64,000 nt of DNA, taken from positions 2,170,001-2,234,000 of the forward strand of contig NZ_BCNV01000001.1 of NCBI RefSeq assembly GCF_001570725.1, read 5' to 3'. The stretch comes from Paenibacillus amylolyticus. GTDB lineage: Bacteria > Bacillota > Bacilli > Paenibacillales > Paenibacillaceae. The notes beneath the pieces were generated by a model. That model was not told the origin of the DNA and did no database searches. It worked only from the letters and a program-made list of their open reading frames with translations. Positions 4,452-13,363 of this stretch are shown here, in pieces; the stretch's first letter is position 1, and every line of letters begins with the position of its first letter. The translations under genes were made by a program, and so were the position numbers.

Positions 4452-5942
4452 TCACAAAGAGGCTGTGACGGCGTTTTTCAATCTGGATACGCCTTCCTGT
4501 AACTGTTCATCTGACAAATGTGCAAAAGATAAATATATACCATACTTCGTACCAACTGACGTTGAACTGCTGACTTCTGAGTATACCACACCTTGTGACT
4601 TAGCCGATGCCCGAAAGGCCTCATACGTGGACACATTACCTCGCCACCAGCCAAACACGTGCAGACCCGCTTCATTCTCCACCCAATCAAACCATGTAGA
4701 AAGTTGCTTGTTCAAAAGTTTGAGTAACAGATCGAATTTGCGACTGTATAATCGATTCATCCTGCGCAGATGACGCTCATATTGACCGCTTGTCATGAAT
4801 GCAGCTAATGCCCGTTGTTCGATCAGGTTGACGGGTCTTGGCTCGTATAATGCCTGTGCCTTTCTAAAGGTATCTGCCAAGGTAGGTGGAAGAACCACAA
4901 AACCAAGTCGTACTTCAAAAGGCAAGGTTTTCGTAAAGCTGCCCAGGTAGATTACACGTCCTGCTTTATCAAGTGTTTTCAGCGGTTCAACATGCATTCC
5001 GCGATATCGGAATTCACTATCATAATCATCCTCGACAATCATGGCATCATGACGATGTGCCCAGTCCAGCAAGGTTTGTCTGCGTTCAAGGCTGAGCATT
5101 TCGCCAGTGGGAAACTGTCGTGACGGCGTGACAAACAACATACGCGCTTCCCAGTCTTGGGGCACAACGCCCTGACCATCGAGATTGGCTTCAATCAACT
5201 GTGCACCCGCAGCCAAAATGGCTTTAGAAATCCCGACATAACAAGGGCTTTCCGTCACGACGTGATCCCCAGGATCTGCAAGTAATTGAGTGAGAAGAGC
5301 TATAGCTTGCATGGAGCCTGCAGTCACTGCAATATGATCCGGATCGACTTGAATTCCCCGCATTCTTCGAAGGTAGGCAGCAATGGCTTCTCTCAATCTC
5401 GGATCCCCGGTTGAACTGACCATCGCAGAGGTTGTTTCCAGGTGATGCTCACGCTGCCGTATCTCTGCATACAATCGATTATTCCATTCATCGTAAGGGA
5501 ATTTGGATAAATCAGGTTGGTATTTGCTAAAGTCGATCACTTCGTTGCGATCCATTCTGGAATCATGTGTTGGAGCATTGGTTTGTGCATTTCTTTGAGT
5601 TGTCAGCTGTTCAAACTGCTGAATACGATTTCCCCAGGCTGATAAGTGATGGTTACAAGCTTTCACGGTGGACGAATCATTGCTTAAATCCAACTGATAC
5701 GCAACAAAGGTTCCTCTTCCATGCTCTGATTGAATGTAACCTTGAGCAGTCAATGTATCATAGACCTGATTCACGGTTCCTCTGGAAATGTGATACGTCG
5801 CGGCTAACTCTCTAGTCGAGGGTAACTTCTCGCCATGTATAAGATTACCTTCATGAATAGCATCACGAATGGCATGATAGAGAGCCTTCATCTTCGTATA
5901 TTTTCGGTTCAAATATGAACTGTAAGCTACATGAAATTGCAT
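4452..5942 (-). CDS. pdxR: MocR-family PLP-dependent transcriptional regulator, PdxR-like
   Basis: 496 residues from ATG 5942, chosen because TGGAGG sits just upstream; an in-frame longer start has none. Residues about 10-80 are a GntR winged helix (GEKLPSTRELAATYHISRGTVNQVYDTL). From about 140 to the end it is a fold-type I aminotransferase-like domain: GDPRLREAIAAYLRRMRG, EDDYDSEFRY (303-313) and the PLP lysine Lys338 in GSFTKTL. MocR proteins sense PLP with this domain. It is divergent to pdxS with a 148-base gap, the standard PdxR arrangement, so it very likely activates pdxS when PLP is scarce. The residues after the lysine (PFEVRLGFV) differ slightly from the common APGLRLGY pattern. 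Confidence 0.9.
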   Translation of the reverse strand: MQFHVAYSSYLNRKYTKMKALYHAIRDAIHEGNLIHGEKLPSTRELAATYHISRGTVNQVYDTLTAQGYIQSEHGRGTFVAYQLDLSNDSSTVKACNHHLSAWGNRIQQFEQLTTQRNAQTNAPTHDSRMDRNEVIDFSKYQPDLSKFPYDEWNNRLYAEIRQREHHLETTSAMVSSTGDPRLREAIAAYLRRMRGIQVDPDHIAVTAGSMQAIALLTQLLADPGDHVVTESPCYVGISKAILAAGAQLIEANLDGQGVVPQDWEARMLFVTPSRQFPTGEMLSLERRQTLLDWAHRHDAMIVEDDYDSEFRYRGMHVEPLKTLDKAGRVIYLGSFTKTLPFEVRLGFVVLPPTLADTFRKAQALYEPRPVNLIEQRALAAFMTSGQYERHLRRMNRLYSRKFDLLLKLLNKQLSTWFDWVENEAGLHVFGWWRGNVSTYEAFRASAKSQGVVYSEVSSSTSVGTKYGIYLSFAHLSDEQLQEGVSRLKNAVTASL

Positions 5943-6090
5943 AGGACCTCCAGAGTTATAATTCAAGTGGTACAATAAAAACCAAAATTATTGGATCTTT
6001 TTATATGACCATTCTCATTCTATACTAAATCATAGTTTAGAGCGATGCCTTTATTGAAAACCACCCAAAGTTCATAGGAGGAATACAATC
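5943..6090. promoter_or_regulatory. pdxR/pdxS divergent control region
   Basis: AAGTGGTAC (5965-5973) resembles PdxR boxes of other Gram-positives; a weaker related copy, ATTGGATC, is at 5990-5997 in the same orientation, 24 bases on. A TATACT -10 for pdxS is at 6021-6026 with no good -35 at the right distance, as expected for an activator-dependent promoter. Operator assignment is inferred. Confidence 0.45.
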
Positions 6091-6972
6091 ATGCAAACAG
6101 GTACAGATCGTGTAAAAAGAGGAATGGCTGAGATGCAAAAAGGTGGCGTCATCATGGACGTTATGAATGCAGAGCAAGCTAAAATCGCTGAGGCGGCTGG
6201 GGCAACAGCAGTTATGGCTCTTGAGCGGGTGCCTTCTGATATTCGCGCAGCTGGCGGTGTAGCTCGTATGGCTGATCCAACGATCGTTGAAGAGGTTATG
6301 AAAGTTGTGTCTATTCCAGTTATGGCCAAAGCGCGTATCGGTCATTACATAGAAGCCAAAGTGCTTGAATCCCTAGGTGTGGATTATCTCGATGAAAGTG
6401 AAGTTCTTACACCTGCAGACGAAGTGTTCCATATTGATAAACATGAGTTCACTGTACCATTTGTATGTGGAGCGAAAGATTTGGGAGAGGCTCTTCGCCG
6501 TATTGGTGAGGGAGCATCGATGATTCGTACAAAAGGTGAGCCTGGAACGGGTAACATTGTTGAGGCAGTTCGTCATATGCGTCTAATTAACAGCCAGCTC
6601 CGTAAAGTGCAAAACATGTCCAAGGACGAGCTGTACGCTGAAGCAAAAAACCTGGGTGTAGCTTATGAGCTACTGCGCGAAGTACATGAAAATGGAAAAC
6701 TTCCTGTCGTTAACTTTGCAGCAGGCGGTGTAGCTACACCAGCAGACGCAGCATTAATGATGCACCTGGGAGCAGATGGTGTGTTTGTAGGATCAGGTAT
6801 TTTCAAATCAGATAGCCCGGAGAAATTCGCTCGTGCAATCGTTGAAGCGACAACACATTACACGGATTACAAATTGATTGCCGAAGTATCCAAAAACTTG
6901 GGCGCCCCGATGAAAGGGATCGAAATTTCTAAATTGGCTCCTGAAGAGCGCATGTCCAACCGCGGTTGGTAA
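6091..6972 (+). CDS. pdxS: Pyridoxal 5'-phosphate synthase, PdxS lyase subunit
   Basis: 293 residues, the usual full length of PdxS. This subunit makes PLP from ribose 5-phosphate, glyceraldehyde 3-phosphate and ammonia delivered by the glutaminase PdxT. Catalytic residues are in place: Asp23 (GGVIMDV), Lys80 (VMAKARIGH) which forms the first Schiff base, and Lys148 ([12 protein letters not shown]); the phosphate-binding [15 protein letters not shown] and [14 protein letters not shown] are intact. ATAGGAGG precedes the ATG. In most Bacillales pdxT follows directly, but here a strong terminator closes the transcript at once, so PdxT must be encoded elsewhere or ammonia is used directly. Confidence 0.98.
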
Positions 6973-7022
6973 GATAGCAGGGCATCTGGTTGAATAGGTA
7001 ATTTGAACATTTATATAGAAGA

Positions 7023-7056
7023 GCCGATCAATTGAACTTAATTGATCGGCTTTTTT
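7023..7056 (+). terminator. Strong terminator after pdxS
   Basis: GCCGATCAATT (7023-7033) pairs perfectly with AATTGATCGGC (7040-7050), followed by six T. Confidence 0.93.
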
Positions 7057-7075
7057 GTTATTACTGTTTAGTTTG

Positions 7076-7105
7076 TTGATATCTTCAAAATGCTGTGCCT
7101 ATAAT
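7076..7105 (+). promoter_or_regulatory. SigA promoter of the AraC-GH39 gene
   Basis: TTGATA (7076-7081), 18-base spacer, TATAAT (7100-7105). Transcription would begin near 7112, leaving only about 10-20 bases of leader before the coding region. Confidence 0.75.
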
Positions 7106-7122
7106 AATCGGTATGAAGGAAG

Positions 7123-9636
7123 GTGCAGACAATTCGCTATCTATACGAGTTTATTCAACATCAGGACGATCTGCCTATGAAACTCTTCGTGAACTCGGTA
7201 AAACATATTGATTTCCATTGGCATAAGGAAGTGGAAGTTGTATATGTGCTCCACGGTTCAATCATCATGTATCTGGACCAGCAGCAATATACACTGCAAA
7301 AAGATGATGTGATCGTGGTTAACAGTATGTCAGTCCACAAGATCGAACGAACCAATCAGGACAACGTGTTATTGACATTGCAATTCGGTCCTGAGTTGAT
7401 GAACAATAATACCTTTATCACCTGTAACTCTGCCTTGAATGTGGAGCAAGACGCTCCCCGGCTGCATAGCATTAAACAATATCTTGCGCAGATGGTATGG
7501 GAGATTAACAAAAAAACACCGGGTTATCAAAATTTCACAATAGGCAGATTACAGATGTTATGCGGCTACCTGCAAAGGTGTTTTTCCAGTGGAACCAATG
7601 CCCTATTGGAAGAAGGCAGCAGGGATTATGACTATAAGAGACTGAACAGGGTCCTCACATATATTGATCTACACTACAATGAGAAGATTACGCTGCAGGA
7701 TATGGCGCATTCCGAACATTTAAGTTTGCATTATTTCTCCCACTTCTTCACCGACAAAATCGGAATACCTTTCCAAAAGTATTTGACGCTCATTCGATTG
7801 GAGAAGGCTCAGGCTCAGCTGGCTGCAAACGATAAAAACATTTCTGAGATTGCGCTGGATTGCGGATTTGCCAATGTGAAGCTGTTTAACAAATACTTCA
7901 AGGAAAAGTACGGCTGCACGCCCGGTTCCTATCGGGAAGCTTTACGTACACCGGAACCCCATCAGTTGAATGTGAACCGCAAGCCCAAAACGTATGAGGA
8001 ATCTTCAAGCGGAGATTATTACGAGATGGAAACGTTGAATGCGATTGGCTCACTGTATCGATATCTGGATGCTAAGGTAGATGCCGATCAGGACACGCTC
8101 CCTGTAACGTCTGCACATCTGTCAGACCAAACTAGCATTGAAATTCGTGCGGATCAGACGTCGTCTGTCTATGAAAAGCACTGGAATATGACCATGACGG
8201 CGGGGAGAGCCATTGAAGGTTTGCGTGAAGATTGGCGGAAGCAGCTCTCCACGCTGAAAGGCAAAGTACCTTTTCAATATATTCGATTTCACGGCATCTT
8301 CAATGACGAGATGATGGTGTACAGCGAAAACGAGCAGGGCATCCCCATCTATAATTGGTCTTATGTGGACAAGTTGTATGATTTCCTGCTGGATCAAGGC
8401 GTTCGGCCATTTGTGGAATTAAGTTTCATGCCTAGCCAACTGGCGAGATCCAAAGAAACGCTGTTTTGGTGGAGGGGGAATATCAGCCCGCCATCCGACC
8501 CTGCCAAGTGGCAGGCGCTTGTTGGCGAATTCGTTCGTCATTGTTTAAATCGTTATGGGGCGGAAGAGGTGAGACGGTGGTATTTCGAAGTATGGAACGA
8601 GCCTGACCTGGCTGGTGTTTGTTGGGCAGGAAGCAAGGAAGAATACTTTGCGTTTTACGAATCGACCGTTCATGCCATCAAATCAATTTTGCCGGAATTG
8701 AAGGTGGGGGGTCCAGCTATGGGTTACGGATCTATCTGGAATGATACCTGGGCGGAGGAATTTTTGTCCTATTGCCACAAGCGGGAAGTGGATCTCGACT
8801 TTTTCTCATTCCACATCTATTCGGAGTATCCCAAGCTCAAAGTTGAAGAGGATCGTTTAACCCAAATCATGCCCCCTGCTTTTTATAAAGAGAGTATTGA
8901 GCTAATGCAGCAAAAAATGAATGCGTCATCGTACGGTCATGTTGAACTTCATGTCACCGAGTGGAACTTTTCGCTGTATGACCGTAACTTGCTACACGAT
9001 ACCATGTTCATGGCTCCATTTGTCATTTACCACACCATGAACACGCTCGGTGACGTGAAAGCGATGGCTTTCTGGTCCTTTACCGATGTATTCGAAGAAA
9101 GTATCGTTCCCGCTTCTCCTTTCTACGGAGGTTTTGGCCTGATTAACCGCGATGGGCTGAAGAAACCCAGCTATTATGCATTTGAGCTTATGCAAAAGCT
9201 TGGGGATGAGCTGATGGTCAAGGGAGACGGTTATGTTGGAACCCGAAAAAGGGATGGAAGCATGCAATTTTTGTTCTATCACTATGTTCACGTAGACCAG
9301 CTGTTTGCAAGTGGAGATTGGTCGGAATTATCCAGCTCAACCCGCTATGACGTATTTGAGGAAAAAGGCAGCAAAGCTTATGAACTTACCCTGGGCAATC
9401 TCGAGGGTCCTTATAAATGCACCAGTTATCAACTGGACCGGGAGCATGGATCGGTATTTGATGAGTGGACCCGCATGGGATCGCCCTATTCCCTGACGGA
9501 AGAAGAAATCGCCTATCTAAACGGTAGGAGTGGACCCGTTATGGGGACAGAGATGGTAAGAGATGAAAGTTGGCGCAGAGAGATTTTGCTTCCACCGCAT
9601 GGGGTAATGCTGCTCATTTTGGATAAACAATATTAA
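7123..9636 (+). CDS. AraC-type regulator fused to a GH39 (beta-xylosidase-like) domain
   Basis: 837 residues in three parts. Residues 1-100 are a cupin sensor (HWHKEVEVVYVLHGS). Residues about 170-275 are two AraC helix-turn-helix motifs, ending in the usual ISEIALDCGFANVKLFNKYFKEKYGCTPG region. Residues about 340-830 are a GH39 TIM barrel with acid/base Glu493 in FEVWNEPD and nucleophile Glu613 in HVTEWNFS, so the active site looks complete. No signal peptide or membrane segment is present, so the glycosidase domain is intracellular. It may bind or slowly hydrolyse a xylo- or gluco-oligosaccharide as the signal. The downstream EIIC/GH3 genes are natural targets. Start codon: GTG 7123 abuts AAGGAAGG (7116-7123); an in-frame ATT at 7132 would have better spacing. 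Confidence 0.88.
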   Translation: MQTIRYLYEFIQHQDDLPMKLFVNSVKHIDFHWHKEVEVVYVLHGSIIMYLDQQQYTLQKDDVIVVNSMSVHKIERTNQDNVLLTLQFGPELMNNNTFITCNSALNVEQDAPRLHSIKQYLAQMVWEINKKTPGYQNFTIGRLQMLCGYLQRCFSSGTNALLEEGSRDYDYKRLNRVLTYIDLHYNEKITLQDMAHSEHLSLHYFSHFFTDKIGIPFQKYLTLIRLEKAQAQLAANDKNISEIALDCGFANVKLFNKYFKEKYGCTPGSYREALRTPEPHQLNVNRKPKTYEESSSGDYYEMETLNAIGSLYRYLDAKVDADQDTLPVTSAHLSDQTSIEIRADQTSSVYEKHWNMTMTAGRAIEGLREDWRKQLSTLKGKVPFQYIRFHGIFNDEMMVYSENEQGIPIYNWSYVDKLYDFLLDQGVRPFVELSFMPSQLARSKETLFWWRGNISPPSDPAKWQALVGEFVRHCLNRYGAEEVRRWYFEVWNEPDLAGVCWAGSKEEYFAFYESTVHAIKSILPELKVGGPAMGYGSIWNDTWAEEFLSYCHKREVDLDFFSFHIYSEYPKLKVEEDRLTQIMPPAFYKESIELMQQKMNASSYGHVELHVTEWNFSLYDRNLLHDTMFMAPFVIYHTMNTLGDVKAMAFWSFTDVFEESIVPASPFYGGFGLINRDGLKKPSYYAFELMQKLGDELMVKGDGYVGTRKRDGSMQFLFYHYVHVDQLFASGDWSELSSSTRYDVFEEKGSKAYELTLGNLEGPYKCTSYQLDREHGSVFDEWTRMGSPYSLTEEEIAYLNGRSGPVMGTEMVRDESWRREILLPPHGVMLLILDKQY

Positions 9637-9652
9637 AAAAGTACTCTTAAGG

Positions 9653-9682
9653 CATCCTTTCAGTATTGAAGGGATGTTTTTT
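9653..9682 (+). terminator. Terminator after the AraC-GH39 gene
   Basis: CATCCTTTCA (9653-9662) pairs with TGAAGGGATG (9667-9676) with one wobble, then six T. Confidence 0.85.
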
Positions 9683-9769
9683 GTTGTTTATTTCTTGTTC
9701 AGGCTGGCAAGCTAGAACAATAGCGATGAATTGGGCAAAAAACGATCCATGATGCGGCAAGTTCCAACA

Positions 9770-9783
9770 AGAAAGCGTTAACA
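9770..9783 (+). promoter_or_regulatory. cre-like CcpA site upstream of the PTS gene
   Basis: AGAAAGCGTTAACA matches the cre consensus TGWAANCGNTNWCA at 13 of 14 positions. A TATACT at 9792-9797 lies just downstream, so bound CcpA would cover the -35 region of the EIIC/GH3 operon and repress it on preferred sugars. Confidence 0.65.
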
Positions 9784-9837
9784 CAAATCGATATACTATG
9801 GTTGTGGCAGCTTAGAGGAAGACAGGGGGAGTTTTGG

Positions 9838-11070
9838 ATGAAGCGTTTCATGAAATGGATGACAGATTCGTTTGCGCCAAGATTGGAGGCGTTTACGAAC
9901 AATATTTGGGTTTCTTCGATTCAAGAAGCCATCATGGTCGCCATTCCGATGATTTTCATCGGTTCGATTATTACATTGATTTCGATTTTGCAGGATTTCA
10001 TTCCGGGAATGCCGGACCTGACACCCATCACGACATTCAGTTTCGGTTTACTGGGGTTGTTTATTGCTTTTTTGACGCCTTATGTCGTGATGGAAAAAAG
10101 AGAACGACACAAAATCAAGTTGCTGGCAGGAATGACGGGGATATCTCTGTTCGTTATGCTGCTTAACCCGACGGTAAACGAAGACGGTACCATTCAGTTC
10201 ATCCTTGAACGATTTGGACCCTCGGGGATGATTACAGCACTGTTGGTAGGTGTATTTGTCGCTCTTGTAATGATCATGTGTAACAAATTTTCGTTCTTTA
10301 AAAAAGGGTCTTCACTTCCCGAATTCATTATGGACTGGTTCGATTTTCTCGTCCCGATCGCCCTGGTATTAACAACAGGATGGTTGCTTGTATATCAGCT
10401 TCATTTTGATATTTTTGGACTGATCGTGAACGTATTTGAGCCGATCAATGCCGTTGGACAAAGCTTAACCGGATTTTTATTGTTCAATTTCATTGGTGTT
10501 GTACTGTATTCTTTCGGCGTAAGCCCGTGGGTCATGACACCGATCTGGTACGCAATCTGGATACCTGCAATCGAAGAAAATGCAGCTCTTGTCGCAGCGG
10601 GACAAGATCCGGTCAATATCAACACATTTGAAACCTTTTTCTCCGGCTGGCTGGGTATTGGCGGTATGGGTGCGACTTTGCCGTTAGTTGTTTGGTTCCT
10701 GATGGCACGTTCGAAAAAACTGAAATCTGTCGGCAAGGCGACTATTATCCCGTCCTTGTTCAACATTAATGAACCTGTCGTATACGGTGCACCGATTGCC
10801 TTTAATCCATTACTCATGGTGCCGATGTGGATTAATTCACTTATCACACCGGTGATTGTGTACTTGGCTCTCGACTGGGGTTGGGTGCGGATTCCGAGCC
10901 AGATCTTCCAGCTATGGTACACGCCGATCGGCCTGTCCACCTACATTATGTCCGGACTCAATGGGCTTATCTTGCTGGCGGTCGTCCTGGTGATTGTATT
11001 TATTGTCTGGTTTCCGTTTTTCAAACTGTATGATGCACAGGAACTGAAGAAAGAACAGGAACAAAATTGA
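9838..11070 (+). CDS. PTS EIIC permease, lactose/cellobiose family (orphan EIIC)
   Basis: 410 residues from ATG 9838, which has AGGGGGAG about 10 bases upstream. It has around ten hydrophobic segments and the family hallmark NINEPVVYGAPIAFNP near residues 315-330. This domain moves and helps phosphorylate a disaccharide such as cellobiose. No EIIA or EIIB domain is attached and none is encoded next to it, so partner proteins must come from elsewhere. It begins a two-gene unit with the GH3 gene 19 bases downstream and lies behind a cre-like site. Confidence 0.9.
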   Translation: MKRFMKWMTDSFAPRLEAFTNNIWVSSIQEAIMVAIPMIFIGSIITLISILQDFIPGMPDLTPITTFSFGLLGLFIAFLTPYVVMEKRERHKIKLLAGMTGISLFVMLLNPTVNEDGTIQFILERFGPSGMITALLVGVFVALVMIMCNKFSFFKKGSSLPEFIMDWFDFLVPIALVLTTGWLLVYQLHFDIFGLIVNVFEPINAVGQSLTGFLLFNFIGVVLYSFGVSPWVMTPIWYAIWIPAIEENAALVAAGQDPVNINTFETFFSGWLGIGGMGATLPLVVWFLMARSKKLKSVGKATIIPSLFNINEPVVYGAPIAFNPLLMVPMWINSLITPVIVYLALDWGWVRIPSQIFQLWYTPIGLSTYIMSGLNGLILLAVVLVIVFIVWFPFFKLYDAQELKKEQEQN

Positions 11071-11089
11071 TATTAGAAGGGTGAGTACT

Positions 11090-13363
11090 ATGGATAAATC
11101 AATCAATGAATTGTTGACGGCATTAACGTTGGCCGAGAAAGCTTCACTCTGCGCAGGATTGAATATGTGGATGACAAAAGGAATCGAGCGGTTAAACATT
11201 CCGCCAGTTCATATGTACGATGGGACAAACGGCATCCGTAAAACAAACAGCGATGAAGAAATGGGGATTACAACGGAAAATGTACCCGCAACCTGTTACC
11301 CTACAGGTTCAGCCATCGGTTCTTCGTGGAATACGGAATTGTTGCATGAAGTCGGTGTGGCCCTAGGACAGGAATCGAAAACGATGGACGTCGAGCTGTT
11401 GCTTGGACCCGGTGTCAATATGAAAAGAACGCCGCTCGGCGGAAGAAACTTCGAATACTATTCGGAAGACCCATACTTGACGGGTGAACTTGGAGCAGCT
11501 TTTATAAACGGGATCCAAAGCGAAGGCGTGGGCGCTTCTGTCAAACACTTTGCCGGCAACAACCAGGAGTTCGAGAAAATGGTGACCAGTTCGGAAATCG
11601 ACGAGCGAACGCTTCGCGAGATTTACCTGAGCGCCTTTGAACGAATTATTAAGAAATCCGACCCTTGGACGGTCATGTGTTCTTATAACTTATTGAATGG
11701 AACATATACGAGCGAGAACGAACATTTGCTACATGACATTTTGAGAAAAGAGTGGGGTTATGAAGGTGTTGTCCTATCCGACTGGACTGCTGTCAATGAT
11801 CGCATACGCGGTCTGAAGGCCGGGCTTGATCTGGAGATGCCAGGTCCTGCTCATTACAATGCCAAAGCAATCATTGAAGCGGTCCAGAACGGAAGCCTTT
11901 CCGAAAAACAGTTAGATCGCAGCGTGGGCCGGATTTTGAAGCTGGTTGAGCGGGTAACGGGCAAGAAAGACATGGATTCTTCTCCAGATTCGGACTATCA
12001 TGCACTCGCGCGTAAAGCGGCGGCCGAGAGTATTGTGCTTCTGAAAAATGAGAACGCGATTCTCCCGCTAGGGCAGGAGTCCATTGCGTCGATTGCCGTG
12101 ATCGGGCGGTTTGCCAAAAAACCGAGAATTCAGGGAGCGGGCAGTGCGAAGGTAACGCCTACAAGAGTCGATATTCCATGGGACGAGATAAAAAATCTGG
12201 CTGGCGATGCCATGACCATGAATTATGCAGAAGGGTACCCGGAGGATGACTCTATCAATGATGAGCTAATCAAGGAAAGCGTGTCAATAGCCATGAATTC
12301 CGATGTTGCTGTACTGTTTGTAGGCCAACCGGAATATGCGGAATCCGAAATGCATGATTTGCAAGGCATTGATCTTCCCGAGCATCAAGTAAAATTGATT
12401 CTTGCGGTAGCCGCAGTTCAGCCCAAGTGTATTGTCGTAACGAGTAGCGGTTCCGCACTGGCGATGCGTCCATGGGTACAGCATGTACCTGGTGTGATTC
12501 ATTCTTGGTTGTCGGGTCAAGGCATGGGTAAAGTGATTGCAGATGTATTATTCGGACAGACGAATCCTTCGGGCAAGCTGTCTGAGACATTCCCCGTCAA
12601 ACTATCGGACAACCCTTCACATATGCGAATTCGCGGAGAGAACGGCAAACTGTATTATCGCGAAGGCCTGTTCGTGGGTTATCGATATTATGACCGGAAA
12701 GAACTGGCACCTCAATTCCCGTTTGGACACGGATTGTCTTACACATCGTTTTTGTATACGGATCTGGAAGTGGCTCAGACCCATACCGGTGTTACTGTGT
12801 CCTTCCAATTAAAAAATACCGGTAAGCGCAAGGGGAAAGAAGTTGTTCAACTGTATGTTCACGATGAAGAGTGCACATGGACCCGTCCAGAGAAAGAATT
12901 AAAAGCTTTTGCCAAAGTTGAACTGGAGCCGCGTGAAAAACGCAAAATTACTTTTGAACTGGAAGAGAGAGATTTCTCATATTACAACACCAAGTATAAC
13001 CGTTGGGTGGCAGAGACCGGGTTTTTCCAAATTTCACTTGGCAGCTCGTCCAAAGATCTCCGAATTACGGAACGTCTGCATTGTGACTTTGGTAAGGAAG
13101 AAATCACGTTCCACAAATTCAGTCTGCTCAGTGAGTGGATGAGTGATCCTGTGGCGAAAAAGGAATTGGAGCATTGCCTGAATGAAATGAACGAGCACGT
13201 TACGGACAAGGTATATCTTAACGAGGAGTTTGTGGGATTCTGGGCAGATTTCCCGATGATCAAAGTGTTCCAAATGTTCGGCCAACAATGGATGAATGAG
13301 CGGTCACCTGATGAAATTATTAATGAACTTATCGCCAAGGTTAACCAGGCACGTAATGAATAG
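11090..13363 (+). CDS. GH3 family beta-glucosidase-like glycosidase
   Basis: 757 residues from ATG 11090, with AGAAGGG eight bases upstream; a GTG at 11081 is in frame but overlaps that site. The N-terminal TIM barrel carries the nucleophile Asp231 in VVLSDWTAV and the substrate-binding MYDGTNGIRK and KHFAGNNQE. An alpha/beta sandwich follows, with FVGQPEYAESEMHD (the glutamate-bearing loop), then a fibronectin III-like domain (FPFGHGLSYTSFLYTDLEV). No signal peptide is seen, so it acts in the cytoplasm. Architecture is that of family 3 beta-glucosidases, but beta-xylosidase activity cannot be excluded. GH3 enzymes normally cleave unphosphorylated glycosides, which sits oddly with the adjacent PTS permease. 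Confidence 0.92.
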   Translation: MDKSINELLTALTLAEKASLCAGLNMWMTKGIERLNIPPVHMYDGTNGIRKTNSDEEMGITTENVPATCYPTGSAIGSSWNTELLHEVGVALGQESKTMDVELLLGPGVNMKRTPLGGRNFEYYSEDPYLTGELGAAFINGIQSEGVGASVKHFAGNNQEFEKMVTSSEIDERTLREIYLSAFERIIKKSDPWTVMCSYNLLNGTYTSENEHLLHDILRKEWGYEGVVLSDWTAVNDRIRGLKAGLDLEMPGPAHYNAKAIIEAVQNGSLSEKQLDRSVGRILKLVERVTGKKDMDSSPDSDYHALARKAAAESIVLLKNENAILPLGQESIASIAVIGRFAKKPRIQGAGSAKVTPTRVDIPWDEIKNLAGDAMTMNYAEGYPEDDSINDELIKESVSIAMNSDVAVLFVGQPEYAESEMHDLQGIDLPEHQVKLILAVAAVQPKCIVVTSSGSALAMRPWVQHVPGVIHSWLSGQGMGKVIADVLFGQTNPSGKLSETFPVKLSDNPSHMRIRGENGKLYYREGLFVGYRYYDRKELAPQFPFGHGLSYTSFLYTDLEVAQTHTGVTVSFQLKNTGKRKGKEVVQLYVHDEECTWTRPEKELKAFAKVELEPREKRKITFELEERDFSYYNTKYNRWVAETGFFQISLGSSSKDLRITERLHCDFGKEEITFHKFSLLSEWMSDPVAKKELEHCLNEMNEHVTDKVYLNEEFVGFWADFPMIKVFQMFGQQWMNERSPDEIINELIAKVNQARNE

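Follow-up and report, generated by a model that had tools for sequence, protein, structure and literature searches.

The region under study lies in a 64,000-nucleotide stretch of Paenibacillus amylolyticus DNA, referred to here as the window, and contains an AraC-GH39 regulator gene (7132..9636), a gene for an EIIC protein of the lactose/cellobiose PTS family (9838..11070) and a gene for a GH3 glycosidase (11081..13363), all on the forward strand, as are the regulatory elements described below. The original prediction took 7076 to 9636 as the regulator gene; however, 7076 belongs to a −35 hexamer and is no start codon, and the length of the span is not divisible by three. The open reading frame ending at 9636 is intact and, from the conventionally called GTG at 7123, encodes 837 amino acids; residue numbers refer to this start, for which the predicted numbering of Glu493 and Glu613 is correct. 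The gene has a strong σA-like promoter (7076..7105; TTGATA-N18-TATAAT), which matches 11 of 12 consensus positions and is kept in close orthologues, and it is divided from the upstream pdxS by the intrinsic terminator of the latter (7015..7058), located by a terminator scan. A MocR/PdxR-like regulator gene (4452–6972 in the window) diverges from pdxS; its presence upstream of the operon is confined to the nearest relatives.

Translation of the regulator most likely begins at ATT 7132, a conserved AUU/AUC/AUA codon that lies 8 nt 3' of a Shine–Dalgarno sequence, AAGGAAGG (7116..7123), recognized from the sequence itself and from the orthologue alignment. Among 31 orthologues, this codon is ATT in 26, ATC in 4 and ATA in 1, and is never ATG; synonymous and nonsynonymous codon-pair differences stand at 2415:316 downstream of it and at 366:4277 upstream. 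The assignment rests on this invariant AUH codon together with the turn to synonymous variation from that point onwards. Moreover, in several orthologues the stretch from the previous in-frame stop to the codon in question is free of ATG, GTG and TTG. GTG 7123 is disfavoured as a start, being found in just 13 of the 31 orthologues and abutting the Shine–Dalgarno sequence, and so is ATG 7177, which is missing from 4 of them. Outside the clade with the EIIC and GH3 genes, homologues show ATG, TTG or GTG at the position of 7132.

As predicted, the protein is a single chain in which a cupin and an AraC DNA-binding domain precede a complete GH39 domain. The cupin or AraC ligand-binding domain (residues 30–124; 7210..7494; Pfam AraC_binding and Cupin_2) carries a conserved HWHxxxE motif, and is followed by an AraC-type double helix-turn-helix (residues 195–272; 7705..7938; HTH_18, E = 1.2e-19), a flexible linker (residues ~276–335; 7948..8127) and a GH39 (α/β)8 barrel with its β-sandwich (8128..9633), for which Pfam gives Glyco_hydro_39 at residues 339–809 with E = 1.4e-97. 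The closest solved structure is that of the GH39 β-xylosidase GsXynB1 (1w91; E = 3e-88). An AlphaFold model built from 47 fusions has a mean pLDDT of 85, rising to ~95 in the GH39 part, with the linker disordered (pLDDT below 50 at 276–303 and 318–331); its best structural matches are GH39 β-xylosidases, at a TM-score, normalized to the target, of ~0.90 (0.90 for 1w91). By alignment, Glu493 (8599..8601) is the equivalent of the GsXynB1 acid/base E160, and Glu613 (8959..8961) that of the nucleophile E278, so that both catalytic glutamates are present as proposed. This gene is the sole GH39 gene of the genome.

The spacer 3' of the regulator gene begins with an intrinsic terminator (9649..9680; terminator scan), kept in orthologues, and continues with a probable operator (9734..9777), delineated by spacer conservation: a pair of GGCAA direct repeats with 22-bp spacing, followed by AACAAGAAAGCG. 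A −10 box, TATACT (9792..9797), lies at an invariant distance of 58 nt from the first half-site, and no good −35 element accompanies it. Of 39 homologous spacers, 23 contain the strict GGCAA pair, whereas shuffled sequences would be expected to give 0.07; because these spacers are related, the count demonstrates conservation rather than independent recurrence. Across the whole genome the operator is found in a single copy, allowing up to three mismatches. The predicted half-sites conform to the AraC/XylS arrangement of direct repeats about two helical turns apart beside the target promoter, and the layout as a whole is that predicted for a site through which an AraC-type activator would serve a single, neighbouring target. 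Overlapping this region is a cre-like site, AAGAAAGCGTTAACAC (9769..9784), which is also kept in orthologues; since sites with two mismatches, as here, are no commoner in the window than chance predicts and not significant alone, we retain it just as a conserved candidate.

The order AraC-GH39, EIIC, GH3 on one strand recurs at ~35 Paenibacillaceae loci, among which the outer genes vary; Lederbergia, Bacillus and Rossellomorea have the last two genes the other way round (AraC-GH39, GH3, EIIC). This conserved gene order, together with the operator-like element, backs the proposal that the EIIC/GH3 pair is the target, and the AraC-GH39 protein probably switches this operon on. The hydrolase has no evident signal peptide and has Clostridium thermocellum BglB as its closest solved relative. 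No EIIA or EIIB gene adjoins that for EIIC. From the structure of bcChbC, we take its His250 to be important for phosphotransfer; this residue is absent from all 38 operon EIIC proteins, which retain Glu334, and the lac-type EIIA family PF02255 is absent from this genome. An EIIC lacking His250 in a genome lacking a lac-type EIIA suggests uptake without phosphorylation, which would fit a hydrolase acting on unphosphorylated sugar, and phosphorylation of the substrate by a PTS is disfavoured on the same grounds. This PTS-type transporter seems to have abandoned phosphorylation.

The fusion is not peculiar to this genome. We ran profile searches on 250 genomes of the family and 398 of the phylum and scanned named genomes as well, which together yielded 137 non-identical AraC-GH39 fusions, and the expectation that the architecture would occur in related species is amply confirmed: it constitutes a widespread Firmicutes family, with hosts in the Paenibacillaceae (up to five per genome), Bacillaceae, Listeria, Tissierella and Lachnospiraceae, together with one Treponema MAG. 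Within the genus, an orthologue with 72–98% identity is present in ~20 of 76 genomes, and distant full-length paralogues are present in several of the 76. Fused and free GH39 domains separate on the tree with at most three changes, and the fusion may be of single origin. Three short fusions of 662–690 amino acids (L176, L177 and L178) have a partial GH39 barrel, and L176 and L178 adjoin MATE efflux genes.

Loss of the glutamates from most homologues had been looked for as evidence against the prediction, and the check came out in its favour: both residues are kept in 107 of the 137 fusions and at least one is lost in 30. As the named-genome scan selected partly on a WNE pattern, the fairer figures are those for the set not selected on this motif, in which 74 of 104 fusions have both glutamates and 30 do not. 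For free GH39 enzymes, the corresponding figure is 68 of 69. We also checked seven other subsite residues, namely, H390, N492, H564, Y566, W651, E658 and E659; all seven are intact in 101 of the 107 fusions with both glutamates, and the 30 fusions missing a glutamate retain between none and four of them. Retention of the GH39 pocket is therefore all or none, and at least four changes between the intact and degenerate states are needed on the tree. The neighbourhoods of the two classes differ: a GH3 gene lies within 5 kb at 28 of 43 non-redundant loci for intact fusions, as against 1 of 19 for degenerate ones (Fisher p = 1.4e-5, kinship ignored), and a comparison by independent pairs, of which only three to four were informative, gave p = 1 in a sign test. 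The neighbours of the sampled degenerate fusions include a GH3 gene in one case and otherwise encode M20 peptidases, MATE pumps, esterases, a PTS and isomerase-like proteins.

Two pocket residues bear on the identity of the ligand. The positions of GsXynB1 F166 and Y283 are occupied by Cys500 and Leu618, respectively, in all 17 distinct sequences listed for the EIIC/GH3 clade. The equivalent of F166 (Phe168 of XacXynB) contacts the −1 xylose (PMC7242879); the Y283 position is variable in free GH39 enzymes too, and is Pro in the active enzyme XylP81 (PMC8543862). Since both residues are replaced and the target hydrolase is nearest to a β-glucosidase, xylobiose is not the obvious ligand, and xylan or xylobiose as the target is downgraded accordingly, the hydrolase being a BglB-like GH3 enzyme. 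The ligand is probably something other than xylobiose, and β-glucoside-like.

Taken together, the sequence comparisons lead us to favour, with some confidence, a one-component AraC-type activator in which the GH39 domain serves as the inducer-binding module for an unphosphorylated β-glycoside. The regulator, transcribed from its own promoter, would be made in small amounts, as its non-AUG start codon suggests. An unphosphorylated β-glycoside would enter the cell via the EIIC protein and bind in the GH39 pocket, which is intact here, possibly with participation of the cupin. The resulting change in dimer geometry would let the AraC domains occupy both GGCAA repeats, spaced by 22 bp next to the −35 region, and bring RNA polymerase to the EIIC and GH3 genes; the GH3 enzyme would then digest the imported sugar. 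The ligand class, activation, binding through the GH39 domain and low expression are steps that we infer, and the scheme draws its support from the domain order, the all-or-none pocket, the conserved operon, the commoner GH3 neighbours of intact fusions, the 22-bp repeats next to a −10 box whose −35 element is poor or missing, the single operator, and an EIIC without His250 in a genome without a lac-type EIIA. What counts against it, besides the parallel conservation of the cupin motif and the kinship among the loci with GH3 neighbours, is that binding needs no full catalytic machinery, yet most members keep all of it. Even so, a complete GH39 domain used to recognize a sugar is the most likely reading of the conservation, and a sensor is better supported than the built-in timer that the original prediction also entertained.

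The retained machinery is, indeed, what gives substance to the contrary proposal, that the GH39 domain is catalytically active and hydrolyses or transglycosylates the inducer, the regulator thereby destroying its own signal, as in a timer, or making it, as with lactose and allolactose. This we regard as unlikely, if worth weighing. Both glutamates are present in most fusions, usually with the full subsite, and replacement of the tyrosine is tolerated in XylP81; furthermore, a fosmid with an AraC-regulator-like GH39 gene product has been linked to β-xylosidase activity, albeit that the protein was insoluble and the activity unassignable (PMC5457731). Against this stand the Cys500 and Leu618 replacements throughout the clade sequences listed, the GH3 hydrolase already provided by the operon, and the consideration that a low-level regulator would consume little inducer. 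Slow turnover of the inducer by the GH39 domain is possible. In its boldest form, to which we would likewise give only limited credence, the transcription factor would be a working glycosidase: one active site would both read and consume or remake the inducer, the catalytic rate would set the length of the response, and dead versions, such as those of the AryK branch, would have evolved repeatedly to sense something else.

A further alternative, which we judge improbable, assigns inducer binding to the cupin, leaving the GH39 domain as a separate enzyme or oligomerization unit. The cupin is the sugar sensor in ordinary AraC-type regulators, and it could be so here because conservation of its HWHxxxE motif goes hand in hand with that of the GH39 pocket. 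H32, H34, E38 and H72 are near-invariant, each being present in no fewer than 102 of 105 intact fusions, where the motif is conserved like the pocket; in part of the degenerate group the motif decays. However, no member of the EIIC/GH3 clade lacks the GH39 domain, gene wrecks apart, and other clades still keep degenerate GH39 domains whole, from which it appears that the domain matters to regulation even without catalysis. The wrecks themselves are found in two near relatives: the regulator is frameshifted in Paenibacillus sp. OVF10 (G055; L040), where the EIIC and GH3 genes still adjoin it and the latter is itself split over two frames, and truncated in G058. These broken copies are what might be cited for a functionless accidental fusion or annotation artefact. 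We reject this notion as highly improbable: over 100 distinct fusions of full length, from several Firmicutes families, share both the architecture and the conserved residues. The fusion is real and conserved, and probably functional.

With regard to known systems, the start codon has several parallels. Conserved AUU or AUA starts behind a strong Shine–Dalgarno sequence are reported for infC, cvfC1 and ccpN, with ~10–30% of the expression given by AUG in Staphylococcus aureus (PMC13009471), and sigR in Streptomyces is limited by a GTC start (PMC5472188). The regulator gene resembles infC, pcnB, cvfC1 and ccpN in having a non-AUG start behind a strong Shine–Dalgarno sequence that is conserved across species (PMC13009471, PMC5472188), and ccpN, like it, encodes a transcription regulator; unlike this set, it is an AraC-GH39 gene and has sister clades with AUG. 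It thus adds a clear case, predicted from sequence, of a conserved non-AUG start in a regulator gene.

The protein shares its fold and both catalytic glutamates with the GH39 β-xylosidases GsXynB1, TsXynB and XacXynB, as well as H390, N492, H564, Y566, W651 and E659 (window numbering) of the −1 subsite; it differs from them in the AraC fusion, in Cys500 and Leu618 for F166 and Y283, and in that its activity is putative. As a regulator, it recalls Btr of Bacillus, which we take to be an AraC protein fused to a periplasmic-binding-protein domain. Btr senses a siderophore, and likewise has a large borrowed C-terminal sensor domain, there derived from a binding protein and of a fold unlike GH39. 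An AraC-like domain N-terminal to some GH39 xylosidases was recorded in a methods note of 2021 (PMC8543862); the architecture is the same, and we found no analysis of function, operon, operator or residues in that account. Nor did we find a report of the function of this architecture in the open-access literature, to which our search was directed.

The closest parallel in biological terms is AryK, an AraC/XylS protein of S. aureus reported to raise α-haemolysin expression and to affect metabolic genes (PMC3922988). Two degenerate fusions, L257 and L141, align with the AryK model (NCBIfam NF047455) along its full length, with 488–503 bits; a third, L174, does likewise, and several of these relatives adjoin M20 peptidase genes. 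Because the degenerate branch matches the whole model, AryK appears to be a pseudo-GH39 family member whose large C-terminal part is a dead GH39 domain. The window protein scores 149 bits against this equivalog, over residues 24–434 only and below the 850-bit cut-off. The two proteins have the same domain order, and differ in that AryK belongs with the degenerate members and affects genes of virulence and metabolism, whereas the window protein has an intact active site. Placing the virulence-linked AryK in a pseudo-glycosidase family hints at the nature of its large uncharacterized C-terminal region. More broadly, with more than 100 fusions having a complete site and ~30 a dead one within one architecture, the family offers a natural series for the passage from enzyme to sensor, and one for which a defined operon and operator are at hand for tests.
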